From Cellulomonas soli (GTDB taxonomy: Bacteria > Actinomycetota > Actinomycetes > Actinomycetales > Cellulomonadaceae): 64,000 bases of DNA. Positions 25,438 through 41,632 of the stretch are shown here, in pieces. The position numbers and the translations under genes were made by a program. A model generated the notes under the pieces. It did no database searches. It was given only the letters and a program-made list of their open reading frames with translations, and was not told the origin of the DNA. The number at the start of each line of letters is the position of its first letter. Positions within the stretch are counted from its first letter, which is position 1. The stretch covers positions 2,294,001 through 2,358,000 of the forward strand of contig NZ_JACBZJ010000001.1 of NCBI RefSeq assembly GCF_013409305.1, in the 5' to 3' direction.

Positions 25438-25455
25438 GTTCGTCCCTTGTTCACC
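25438..25455 (+). promoter_or_regulatory. PHO-box-like repeat upstream of pstC
   Basis: GTTCGTC at 25438 and GTTCACC at 25449, exactly 11 bp apart, form a near-consensus two-unit PHO box about 105 bp before the pstC start. It is placed where PhoP would activate the pst genes. Confidence 0.7.
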
Positions 25456-25559
25456 GCTCCGGGGGCCCGTGGACACCGCGCCTGGATTCGATCATCCGGG
25501 GGACGGGCCGAACCGCGACGCCCGGCCCGACCCGTGTCCCACCTCGAAGGAGCGCCCCC

Positions 25560-38984: not shown

Positions 38985-40580
38985 ATGTCCCGTCCTCTCC
39001 GGTCCGCCGTGCGGGCCGCCCTGGTGGTGCTCGCCGCGCTGGCGGTCGTCGTCCCCGCGACGGCCGCCGGCGCGGACGACGGCACCGCCGCCTGGTCGAT
39101 CACCCCGTCGGACGCCGCGGGCACGACGGACGGTCGCACCCGGTTCGAGCTGTCGCTCGCGCCGGGGGAGCAGGTCGAGGAGCACCTCGTGCTGGCGAAC
39201 TCCTCGACGGTGGAGCGCACGTTCCGGGTGTACGGCGCCGACGGGTTCAACACGGCGACAGGCGGTTTCGACCTGCGGCCGGCGGCGGACACACCGGTGG
39301 GCATCGGCGCCTGGGTGACGACGCCGGACGCGAGCGTGACGGTCCCGGCGCTCTCGACCCGCACGGTCGCGTTCACGGTGGCGGTCCCGCAGGACGCGGC
39401 GCCGGGCGACCATGCCGGTGGTCTGGTCGTCTCGCCCGAGCAGGTGCAGGTCGACGAGGCGACGGGCGTGGTCGTGGACACGAGGGTCGCGGTGCGGCTC
39501 GCGGTGCGGGTCGCGGGCGAGCTCGCCCCGGCGCTCGAGGTGCGCGACGTGCACGCGTCGTACGCCTTCGACGCCGTGCCGTTCGCGGCGTCCTCGGCGA
39601 CGGTGACGTTCGAGGTCGTGAACACGGGCAACGTCAAGGTCCTGGGTGTGCCCAGGCTGCGGGTGACCGGCCCGTTCGGCACGCGGCTGGCGCACCTCGA
39701 GCCGGAGAGCACGCGGGAGGTGCTGCCGGGTGACTCGTTCACGGTGACGGCGACGTTGCCGGGGGTCGAGCCCGCCGTGCTGGCCACCGCGGTGGTCGAC
39801 GTGACGATGGCCGCGGCGCCGGGCCCGGGCACCGAGCTGCCGGGGGTCTCCAGCACGGGACGCGCGACGTTCGTGGCGGTGCCCTGGACGGGTCTGCTGC
39901 TGGTGGCGGTGCTGGTGGTCCTCGTCGTGCTCCTGGTCCGCCGGGTGCGGGCGCGGCGCCGTGCCGCGCAGGTGCTGTGGACCGAGGCGGTGGCCGAGGC
40001 GCGCCGCGAGATCGAGGCGGGGCCGCCCGCGGGGGAGCCGTCACCGGAGGGCTCCCGTCCGTCGGTCGGTCCGACCGTCGGGGTGCTCGTGCTGCTCGTG
40101 CTGGTGGTGACCGGCGCGGCGTGCGTCGCCGTGCCTGCGCGGGCGGTCGCGTCCGAGGGTGTCACGGTGGTCTCGCAGGACGGTGACGACGGTGTGCTGC
40201 GGCTGGAGGTGCCGGCCTCGCCGACAGCCTCGCCGAGCGTGCCTGCCGGTGCCGGCGCCGGTCCGGGGTCCGCTCCCACCACGTCGGTGCTGGGGGGTTC
40301 CCGGGGGGCACCTCGTTCCGCGGGGTCGCCGCCGGCCGCCGCCGGTTCTGCGGCCGACGCTGCGGTCGACGCGGGTGCCGCCACCGGCACGGCCGCGGCG
40401 GAGGGTGGCGAGGTGAAGGTGGCCGGCCTGCGGGTGCGGACGCCTGACCTGGTCTGGCGTGCGGCGCGCGGGGACGCTCCTGCGCGTGCGGTGCTGGCCG
40501 CGACCGGGCTGACGGCGCTCGGTGGAGGCGGGTGGCTGGTGCACCGGCTCGTGCTGGCCCGTCGGCCGGGCATGCCGTGA
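38985..40580 (+). CDS. DUF916-type WxL-interacting protein, copy 2, with LAATG tail
   Basis: This 531-residue protein has a signal peptide (1-34) and a DUF916-like extracellular half (L-A-P-G-E-Q-V-E-E-H-L-V-L-A-N-S, G-A-W-V-T-T, P-Q-D-A-A-P-G-D-H-A-G-G and N-T-G-N-V-K-V-L-G). It has a first helix (about 292-315), a basic cytoplasmic loop (R-R-V-R-A-R-R-R), a second helix (about 364-390) and a low-complexity outer segment. It ends with L-A-A-T-G (504-508), a weak hydrophobic stretch and R-R-P, which looks like a LAxTG sortase E signal. The ribosome-binding site AGGGAG precedes the ATG. It is coupled (GTGA) to pstB. Confidence 0.65.
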   Translation: MSRPLRSAVRAALVVLAALAVVVPATAAGADDGTAAWSITPSDAAGTTDGRTRFELSLAPGEQVEEHLVLANSSTVERTFRVYGADGFNTATGGFDLRPAADTPVGIGAWVTTPDASVTVPALSTRTVAFTVAVPQDAAPGDHAGGLVVSPEQVQVDEATGVVVDTRVAVRLAVRVAGELAPALEVRDVHASYAFDAVPFAASSATVTFEVVNTGNVKVLGVPRLRVTGPFGTRLAHLEPESTREVLPGDSFTVTATLPGVEPAVLATAVVDVTMAAAPGPGTELPGVSSTGRATFVAVPWTGLLLVAVLVVLVVLLVRRVRARRRAAQVLWTEAVAEARREIEAGPPAGEPSPEGSRPSVGPTVGVLVLLVLVVTGAACVAVPARAVASEGVTVVSQDGDDGVLRLEVPASPTASPSVPAGAGAGPGSAPTTSVLGGSRGAPRSAGSPPAAAGSAADAAVDAGAATGTAAAEGGEVKVAGLRVRTPDLVWRAARGDAPARAVLAATGLTALGGGGWLVHRLVLARRPGMP

Positions 40581-41632
40581 GCGCGGATGCCGTGAGCGAG
40601 TTCGACGAGGAGGCCTGGGCGGTGACGGATCAGATGACAGCAGAGCAGGCGACGGCAGAGCAGATGACGGCGGGTCAGATGACGGCAGAGCACATGACGG
40701 CAGAGCACATGACGGCAGAGCACATGACGGCAGAGCAGGCGGCGGCAGACCGGACGGTCGTGCTGCCTGCCGTCCTGCCGCCGGGTTCACCGGCCGGGGT
40801 CGCGCACGCCCTGACGGTCTCGCCGCGGACGCCGCCGGCGGTGGTGCCGTCGCACGGTCTGGCCGAGCTGCGGGCACGTGAGGTGTCGGCGTGGTTCGGC
40901 TCCCACCATGTGCTCGACCGAGTGTCGCTGACGATGCCGGCCGGGCAGGTGACCGCGCTGATCGGCCCGTCGGGCTGCGGCAAGTCGACCTTCCTGCGGA
41001 TCCTCAACCGCATGCACGAGCTCGTGCCGTCGGCCGCGCTGGCGGGTGAGGTGCTGCTCGACGGCCACGACCTGTACGACCCGTCGCGGCGGGTGACGCA
41101 GGCGCGTCGCGACGTGGGCATGGTCTTCCAGAAGCCGAACCCGTTCCCCGCGATGAGCATCCGTGAGAACGTCCTGGCCGGACTCCGGCTCACCGGTGTC
41201 CGGGCGGGTGCGGCGGACAAGGCGATGCTCGTGGAGTCCTCGCTGATCCGCGCAGGTCTGTGGCGCGAGGTCCGTGACCGGCTGGACGCCCCGGGCGGTG
41301 GGCTCTCGGGTGGGCAGCAGCAGCGCCTGTGCATCGCGCGGGCGCTCGCGGTCCGGCCGCGCGTGCTGCTGATGGACGAGCCGTGCTCGGCGCTCGACCC
41401 GACGTCGACGCGGGTGATCGAGGAGACGATCGGCGAGCTGGCCTCGCAGGTGACGATCGTGATCGTGACCCACAACATGCAGCAGGCGGCGCGGGTGTCG
41501 CAGCAGTGCGCGTTCTTCCTGGCCTCGCAGGGTCTGCCGGGTGTCGTCGTGGAGCACGGGGACACGGGTGCGATGTTCAGCGTGCCGCAGGACGAGCGCA
41601 CGGAGGCCTACGTCTCGGGGCGCTTCGGCTGA
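40577..41632 (+). CDS. pstB: phosphate ABC transporter ATPase PstB with repeat-bearing N-terminus
   Basis: This is a 351-residue ABC ATPase with Walker A G-P-S-G-C-G-K-S-T, Q-loop V-F-Q-K-P-N-P-F-P (the PstB-specific K-P-N-P-F motif), signature L-S-G-G-Q-Q-Q-R and Walker B L-L-M-D-E-P. It should power PstC/PstA. The first 100 residues are an extension not present in usual PstB (about 255-260 residues) and include seven MTAEQ-type pentapeptides encoded by a 15-bp tandem repeat. The GTG at 40577 overlaps the DUF916 stop; GTGs at 40592 and 40621 are alternatives. It lies 13 kb from pstCA. No phoU is visible. Confidence 0.9.
   Translation: MSADAVSEFDEEAWAVTDQMTAEQATAEQMTAGQMTAEHMTAEHMTAEHMTAEQAAADRTVVLPAVLPPGSPAGVAHALTVSPRTPPAVVPSHGLAELRAREVSAWFGSHHVLDRVSLTMPAGQVTALIGPSGCGKSTFLRILNRMHELVPSAALAGEVLLDGHDLYDPSRRVTQARRDVGMVFQKPNPFPAMSIRENVLAGLRLTGVRAGAADKAMLVESSLIRAGLWREVRDRLDAPGGGLSGGQQQRLCIARALAVRPRVLLMDEPCSALDPTSTRVIEETIGELASQVTIVIVTHNMQQAARVSQQCAFFLASQGLPGVVVEHGDTGAMFSVPQDERTEAYVSGRFG
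40634..40738 (+). repeat. 15-bp tandem repeat inside pstB
   Basis: Seven in-frame copies of a 15-bp unit close to ATGACGGCAGAGCAC encode M/A-T-A-E/G-Q/H; three consecutive copies (40679-40723) are identical. A partial eighth follows. Identity of neighbouring units suggests slippage-prone, recently expanded DNA. Confidence 0.85.

Follow-up and report, generated by a model that had tools for sequence, protein, structure and literature searches.

Unusual membrane and surface proteins encoded in a Pst operon of Cellulomonas soli suggest an undescribed assembly for capturing scarce phosphate

Gene content of the locus

The window analysed here is a stretch of 64,000 nucleotides (C1:2294001-2358000) of the complete genome of Cellulomonas soli (4,257,813 bases); positions are those of the window unless prefixed by C1. 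Between 25438 and 41632, it carries the genes of a Pst phosphate importer interspersed with genes for membrane and exported proteins such as p864 (864 residues), a sortase-like protein and sPBP, which is secreted and PstS-like. Profile searches, and structure prediction in the case of p864, find in this interval all the genes that a first-pass annotation of the sequence had named, all pointing rightward. The features are as follows.

25438..25455, +, PHO-box pair upstream of pstC; two 7-nucleotide units, 11 nucleotides apart (score 14/14)
25560..26570, +, pstC, phosphate ABC permease (TIGR02138, 246.9 bits; cut-off 196.45)
26570..27763, +, pstA, phosphate ABC permease (TIGR00974, 207 bits; cut-off 193.45)
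27792..29753, +, PstS with a C-terminal membrane helix and a Pro-rich tail (PBP_like_2, 154.7 bits)
29750..32344, +, p864 (864 residues), predicted PstS-fold domain with replaced ligands (AF2 models, fold matches, ligand columns)
32341..33363, +, sortase-like membrane protein without catalytic His and Cys (PF04203, 51.5 bits; alignment columns; hydropathy)
33504..34484, +, sPBP, secreted PstS-like protein (PBP_like_2, 58.3 bits; alignment and ligand columns)
34550..36178, +, secreted Ig-like/WxL-like protein, copy 1 (Big_3_5, 103.1 bits; WxL under cut-off; alignment)
36294..36311, +, second exact PHO-box pair, before the first DUF916-like gene (full pattern score)
36369..37448, +, DUF916-like membrane protein, copy 1 (36% identity to copy 2 by alignment)
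37562..38923, +, secreted Ig-like/WxL-like protein, copy 2 (Big_3_5, 36.7 bits; WxL under cut-off)
38985..40580, +, DUF916 (WxLIP_PGBD) membrane protein, copy 2 (PF06030, 35.9 bits; cut-off 27.3)
40577..41632, +, pstB, ABC ATPase with a repeat-rich N-terminal extension (ABC_tran, 118.7 bits)
22896..23711, +, lytic transglycosylase-like gene, a frequent neighbour, association only (SLT_2, 32.4 bits)

PstC and PstA exceed the cut-offs of the phosphate equivalog models, PstS keeps the phosphate ligands and a PstB ATPase is present, as in a Pst importer. The TIGR00975 score of the locus PstS (191.9 bits) is just below the cut-off of 205. In 19 aligned sequences, the ligand columns hold T/S (19/19), S (19/19), D (18/19) and R (17/19), followed by S and G (19/19 each) and T/S (18/19). 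Hydropathy places the PstS membrane helix at approximately residues 537-555. The pstB gene is 61-84% identical to p864-adjacent pstB in related loci. Within its N-terminal extension, a 15-bp repeat at 40631-40749 (approximately eight copies) encodes MTAEQ/MTAEH repeats.

The pstC and pstA genes overlap by 1 nucleotide, and the pstS/p864, p864/sortase-like and second DUF916/pstB junctions overlap by 4 nucleotides each. Thus, the overlap that had been reported between pstB and the last surface gene at 40577 is real, as are three more of the many stop-start overlaps described. Those at 34481 and 37445 are artefacts of longest-open-reading-frame calling and vanish when starts are set by alignment to relatives; starts at 34550, 36369 and 37562 fit both the alignments and signal-peptide-like N-termini. 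From the sortase-like gene through the second DUF916 gene, neighbouring genes are separated by 61-190 nucleotides. The importer had been described as fused to a surface assembly at locus level, which holds for gene order only: the one protein fusion joins sPBP to Ig-like domains in Nocardioides-type loci. Rfam and tRNA scans of the whole 64-kb window are empty, and promoter and terminator scans give nothing exceeding shuffled sequences.

Conservation of the gene set and placement of PHO boxes

With a profile built from 24 p864 sequences, we analysed the best 80 of 93 relatives in GTDB genomes. A gene counted as present if tblastn matched it on the same strand within the stretch with 60 bits or more (pst genes) or 35 bits or more (others). 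These relatives come from Cellulomonas, Pengzhenrongella, Nocardioides, Aeromicrobium, Mumia, Pimelobacter, Janibacter, Kribbia, Dactylosporangium, Nanopelagicales and metagenome-assembled genomes (MAGs). The best relative of the window's p864 is in Cellulomonas soli, with 80% identity over 93% of the query. Wherever the flank suffices, p864 is accompanied by pstS (73/73), pstA (72/72), pstC (70/70), the sortase-like gene (76/76), sPBP (74/74) and pstB (66/66). All six core genes are present in 61/61 loci with full flanks, and p864 without pst and sortase-like genes, as chance would predict, occurs in none of the 61.

The order of the genes is not fixed. In Dactylosporangium it is sPBP-Ig-DUF916-pstB-pstC-pstA-pstS-p864-sortase, and in Nanopelagicales and an Actinobacteria MAG it is pstB-pstC-pstA-pstS-p864-sortase-sPBP-Ig-DUF916. 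In more distant genomes, other classes among them, the pst genes diverge from the accessory genes (L136) or the order is changed (L132, L133, L135 and L137). The survival of the shared gene set through reordering indicates function.

In an even draw across the phylum, p864 is found in at least 9 of 296 genomes; this is a lower bound, as three candidates were scored per genome and the window genome's own second copy was overlooked. In all nine, pstC, pstA and a sortase-like gene lie in the same stretch. The p864 match of G149 is weak (2.0e-4) and did not reappear with tblastn; in G149 and G163, the sortase-like genes are counted on identity (32% and 38%), outside the catalytic-residue check described below. 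The neighbourhood search that the first-pass annotation had proposed as a check gives a strongly positive result (61/61 full-flank loci; 9/9 p864 genomes of the phylum draw). Order-wide, p864 occurs in 11/149 genomes and a full-length sortase-like relative in 12/148 (E<=8e-42; next best match, 6.6e-16). The 12 genomes are the 11 with p864 plus G070, whose contig begins inside a p864 gene. The hypergeometric P for this co-occurrence (11 within 12 of 148) is 9e-16, a value that is indicative only, as relatedness is ignored. p864 and its partner genes travel together, though patchily. Plasmid and phage collections, searched for a mobile origin, hold no p864 match at E 1e-5.

The genome has a second composite locus (L098; C1:3328000-3347000) in the order pstC-pstA-pstS-p864-sPBP-Ig-DUF916-sortase-pstB, with 29-54% identity to the main locus for all genes save pstB (75%). 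A canonical locus at approximately C1:2366000-2372100 contains phoU, a phoR-like kinase gene, a phoP-like regulator gene, a lipobox PstS, pstC and pstA (named by eye). Its pstC scores 271.9 bits with TIGR02138, it lacks the extra genes, and pstB is not among the open reading frames kept there by the gene caller. With the PstSCAB importer, of which this is the canonical copy, the composite locus shares PstC, PstA, PstB, a ligand-bearing PstS and a PHO box. Unlike the canonical copy, the locus PstS is held by a C-terminal helix and shows no lipobox by eye; pstB is separated from pstCA by eight genes, and several extra exported proteins are encoded.

Of the 80 relatives, 39 have a lytic transglycosylase-like gene close to the locus, a raw count for a common kind of gene. 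It is upstream of pstC in Cellulomonas, Pengzhenrongella and two Nocardioides loci, and otherwise downstream of pstB; such a neighbour would suit an assembly that needs to fit into the wall. Directly upstream, four loci (L029, L048, L052 and L063) have further diverged composite genes (sortase-like or sPBP genes with pstB), and in L048 the upstream block also includes pstC-pstA-pstS, which suggests tandem duplication.

The Streptomyces PHO box consists of two 11-nucleotide units with a GTTCACC core (PMC4415409). We scanned 250 nucleotides upstream plus 10 nucleotides of each gene in the 80 p864 loci and 8 further loci, with one region per locus where long enough, approximate starts, a pair threshold of >=12/14 and expected counts from first-order shuffles. 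Upstream of pstC, 63/80 regions contain a pair, compared with 5.2 expected. Pairs also exceed expectation before sPBP (14/81; 1.5 expected), the second DUF916 gene (3/16; 0.5) and pstB (4/73; 1.4). They are at chance before pstA (5/79; 4.5), pstS (4/76; 3.6), p864 (1/80; 1.6), the sortase-like gene (1/81; 1.3) and the second Ig-like gene (1/31; 1.3).

Within the locus, where PHO-like repeats had first been noted at several internal points, full-score pairs are found at 25438 and 36294, and no pair scoring >=13 lies upstream of sPBP (33504) in this genome. The exact pattern GTTCRYC-N4-GTTCRYC has four sites genome-wide and none in a reversed control: two in the locus (25438, before pstC, and 36294, ahead of the first DUF916-like gene), one ahead of the canonical pstS beside the phoP-like gene, and one elsewhere. 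L098 has a weaker pair (13/14) before pstC. Given this placement and genome-wide specificity, Pho control of the locus is likely.

Two further occurrences of the motif were seen. The fourth exact pair, at C1:1524988-1525005 (-), is near FHA-domain and transposase genes by eye, with no obvious phosphorus link. At 22402-22434, three tandem PHO-like units (pairs 13/14) precede a small gene at 22489. The lytic transglycosylase gene and one for a PASTA Ser/Thr kinase come next, and L004, L022, L061 and L101 contain these three genes as well.

Accessory proteins and their residue losses

p864 has no Pfam or NCBIfam family match. AlphaFold2 (AF2) models predict a signal peptide, a Cys-rich N-terminal domain, a PstS-fold domain and a C-terminal helix; this helix stays below the hydropathy threshold used. 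Fold matches also assign the PstS fold, as in PstS-1 and PstS-3 of mycobacteria and DING proteins. In contrast to these proteins, p864 has Glu, Ala, Leu, Asp and Val in place of the phosphate ligands, and adds the N-terminal domain and the membrane helix. Among 24 sequences, the replacements are T10 to E (24/24), D56 to A (24/24), R135 to L (24/24), G140 to D (24/24) and T141 to V (23/24), with Ser at the S38 position in 13/24 and at the S139 position in 22/24; the profile alignment spans only R135-T141, and the remaining positions were placed by hand.

sPBP retains the larger part of a phosphate-type site: it keeps the equivalents of T10, S38 and the SGT motif in 21/21 rows with letters there (one incomplete row is gapped), and at the D56 position has D in 11, N in 7 and Q in 3; the profile comparison behind this mapping has an E value of 3.3e-5 and a probability of 72%. 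Its ligand is likely an anion, and phosphate is plausible. In Nocardioides-type loci, sPBP is longer (approximately 480-670 residues) and is fused to two or three Big_3_5 Ig stretches (3/3 scanned).

The sortase-like protein has a sortase domain (PF04203, 51.5 bits; cut-off 26.6), homologous to that of solved class E sortases (5cuw SrtE1, 5go5 and 5go6), and approximately three membrane helices by hydropathy. It falls below the cut-off of the class E subfamily model (73.9 bits; cut-off 160). Profile alignment to the solved structures places Arg at the catalytic His and Ala at the catalytic Cys. We examined these columns in 202 sequences (82 from p864 loci, 119 of 1085 database relatives, and P0003; 2 duplicate rows overall). 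The His column holds R in 188, K in 10 and H in 4, so that Arg or Lys stands there in 198/202. Cys occupies its column in 1/202, the two residues occur together in 0/202, and 63/202 have no cysteine anywhere. The order-wide search gave 13 full-length matches, of which 12 were checked and all lack the catalytic His and Cys; the thirteenth is the genome's own second copy and belongs to the 202-sequence set. By comparison, the GH and TLxTC-type Cys are intact in 8/8 ordinary sortases for which this search gave loci, the Cys being shifted one column by the aligner, as is evident in the aligned strings. By this evidence, these proteins, labelled "class E sortase" in databases, are not catalytic sortases. 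Elsewhere the domain shows strong conservation (GPGH..T.LPGQ, GR....G.PF, R.TLV, C-terminal PN), indicating that it is kept for another purpose. Extra C-terminal helices ending in the conserved PN distinguish the family from class E sortases.

Two WxL-like/DUF916 pairs had been described in the window. One DUF916 domain is above the PF06030 cut-off (38985-40580); for the protein at 36369-37448, Pfam gives no DUF916 match, and the assignment comes from its 36% identity to the former. The WxL (PF13731) scores of the two partners, 17.4 and 13.3 bits, are below the Pfam cut-off of 25, and from these sequences "WxL-like" is the furthest label that can be supported. Among aligned relatives, WxL matches at E<=0.01 are found in 4/20 Ig/WxL-like proteins (best, 4.5e-5), and DUF916 at E<=0.01 in 14/19 DUF916-type proteins. 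No small WxL-only protein lies beside a large one in the window; the shorter of the two has 453 residues and an Ig-like domain.

DUF916 is present in 9/65 p864 loci with enough flank among the best 80 of 93 relatives, and WxL-like/DUF916 pairs occur outside pst loci, so this pair is not the constant partner of Pst. The constant Pst partners are p864, the sortase-like protein without catalytic residues, and sPBP. Since DUF916 is also present in L098 and in other families, a reasonable reading is that Nocardioides-type loci may have lost it alongside the sPBP-Ig fusion.

A proposed phosphate-capture assembly and its alternatives

On the observed gene set, its conservation across rearrangements, the paralogous copy, the residue losses, the predicted folds and topology, and the PHO-box placement, we propose an extended Pst importer: a PstCAB pump, a tethered ligand-competent PstS and a dedicated extracytoplasmic assembly made under phosphate starvation. 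We put the chances of this proposal at about even. The first-pass annotation had likewise envisaged a cell-wall layer that phosphate starvation would induce and that might capture phosphate. We infer its expression, wall retention, complex formation, ligand and hand-over as follows. Under phosphate starvation, PhoP would turn on pstC and the internal start. PstS would be held at the membrane by its own helix, while sPBP would be secreted and, within the wall, bind phosphate or a related anion. The Ig/WxL-like and DUF916 proteins would retain it there; in Nocardioides-type loci, its fused Ig domains would do so. Beside PstCA, p864 and the pseudo-sortase, each predicted to be anchored in the membrane and each conserved despite the loss of its ligand or catalytic residues, could form a docking scaffold, passing ligand or positioning PstS. 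sPBP would raise the local phosphate concentration and hand phosphate to PstS. A bolder version, in which sPBP, the pseudo-PstS p864 and the pseudo-sortase form a fixed complex relaying phosphate through the thick wall to PstSCAB, is possible but doubtful. If true, this relay would be a new envelope machine of Actinomycetota, a monoderm counterpart of outer-membrane phosphate capture.

PstSCAB is treated as a four-part system, and this locus shows it embedded, in various actinobacteria, in a larger fixed set. Two conserved families of that set are stripped of the residues that define their parents. The locus gives a non-catalytic sortase family a genomic context, and opens genetic and biochemical routes to how thick-walled cells import scarce phosphate.

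Several observations weigh against the extended importer. DUF916 is absent from 56/65 loci, including the Nocardioides-type, and anchoring by DUF916 is therefore not general. sPBP has no Arg135 equivalent (Pro in 18/21 rows) and has a new invariant Arg (R120) elsewhere; its ligand may therefore not be phosphate. p864 is patchily distributed (9/296 phylum-wide), 17/80 pstC upstream regions lack a PHO pair at >=12/14, and a canonical pst locus coexists in the genome, which makes any benefit of the composite locus putative.

The sPBP site and the canonical locus bear also on the best-surviving rival, in which sPBP and p864 set the specificity of the same operon and make it a specialised Pst paralogue for a different anion. 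Candidates are phosphonate, organic phosphate and polyphosphate fragments, as well as arsenate-discriminating uptake. Both sites are remodelled with different conserved residues, as this rival would have it, but the locus PstS keeps the ligands for inorganic phosphate in 19 sequences and PstC and PstA exceed phosphate equivalog cut-offs, and we regard this rival as unlikely.

Somewhat less likely again is a locus for wall remodelling or adhesion, in which surface proteins would replace or decorate the wall during starvation and would have no more than Pho control in common with the pst genes, placed beside them to be co-regulated. The Ig-like, WxL-like, DUF916 and lytic transglycosylase genes would fit, and DUF916/WxL-like pairs serve elsewhere without pst. 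However, pstC, pstA, pstS and pstB are inside the block in 61/61 full loci, linked despite rearrangement, and the two conserved extras p864 and sPBP are related to PstS.

The residue losses would also fit a regulatory or scaffold role, as in a sensor or signalling complex in which p864, the sortase-like and the DUF916 proteins report wall or phosphate state instead of capturing phosphate. Upstream of pstC, this locus has a PASTA Ser/Thr kinase gene, and some other loci have kinase-like genes nearby. Yet Pfam and NCBIfam scans find no signalling domain in the conserved set, the stretches examined of Nocardioides-type loci give no kinase match, and the phoU-, phoR- and phoP-like genes (named by eye) sit with the canonical pst locus, making this reading improbable. 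Chance or hitch-hiking, which the patchy distribution might suggest, is close to negligible, as the set is constant over at least three gene orders, has a paralogous copy and spans ten families (f1, f15, f19, f20, f21, f24, f25, f39, f45 and f69).

Published systems resemble parts of the locus. WxL clusters are described as combining small WxL, large WxL and DUF916 proteins, with known WxL sequences mainly in Bacilli (PMC9772566) and almost entirely in Lactobacillales and Bacillales (PMC10599100). The locus shares with these Firmicutes clusters (WxLIP, csc) a DUF916 membrane protein adjoining secreted WxL-like proteins. It differs in its sub-cut-off WxL matches, the lack of a small WxL-only protein, its Ig-like partners, the Pst linkage and, in Nocardioides-type loci, the absence of DUF916. 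By these published descriptions, the locus does not count as a WxL cluster, and it adds WxL-like/DUF916 pairs outside Firmicutes, on which both papers focus. In the literature searched, whose coverage left out most subscription papers and all preprints, we found no description of the composite locus; the available part of a review of actinobacterial phosphate transport (PMC7866108) mentions neither "sortase" nor "Nocardioides".

In Actinomycetota, metallophosphatases and DUF916 are reported to adjoin Ang-2 permeases (PMC12537917). These neighbourhoods, like the locus, place DUF916 beside a phosphorus-related exported protein, and a similar trio is present in this genome. At 5150-10103 of L099 (C1:1917000-1936000), a HupE/UreJ_2 permease, a purple acid phosphatase with a C-terminal WxL-like domain and a DUF916 membrane protein lie in a row; unlike the composite locus, L099 has no pstC, pstS, p864 or sortase-like match. 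Because this phosphatase adjoins DUF916, we tested for a link between DUF916 and phosphorus. PF06030 occurs in 33/396 actinobacterial genomes at 48 places: 3 in this genome, 3 in composite loci and 42 others, of which 41 are covered by 40 stretches (L173-L212; G427:C119 left out). None of the 40 has a pstC or pstS match (E 1e-4) and only 3 (L183, L186 and L187) hold the permease-phosphatase-DUF916 trio, and a general link in Actinomycetota is rejected. In many of these stretches, DUF916 lies beside a WxL-like or Ig-like partner.

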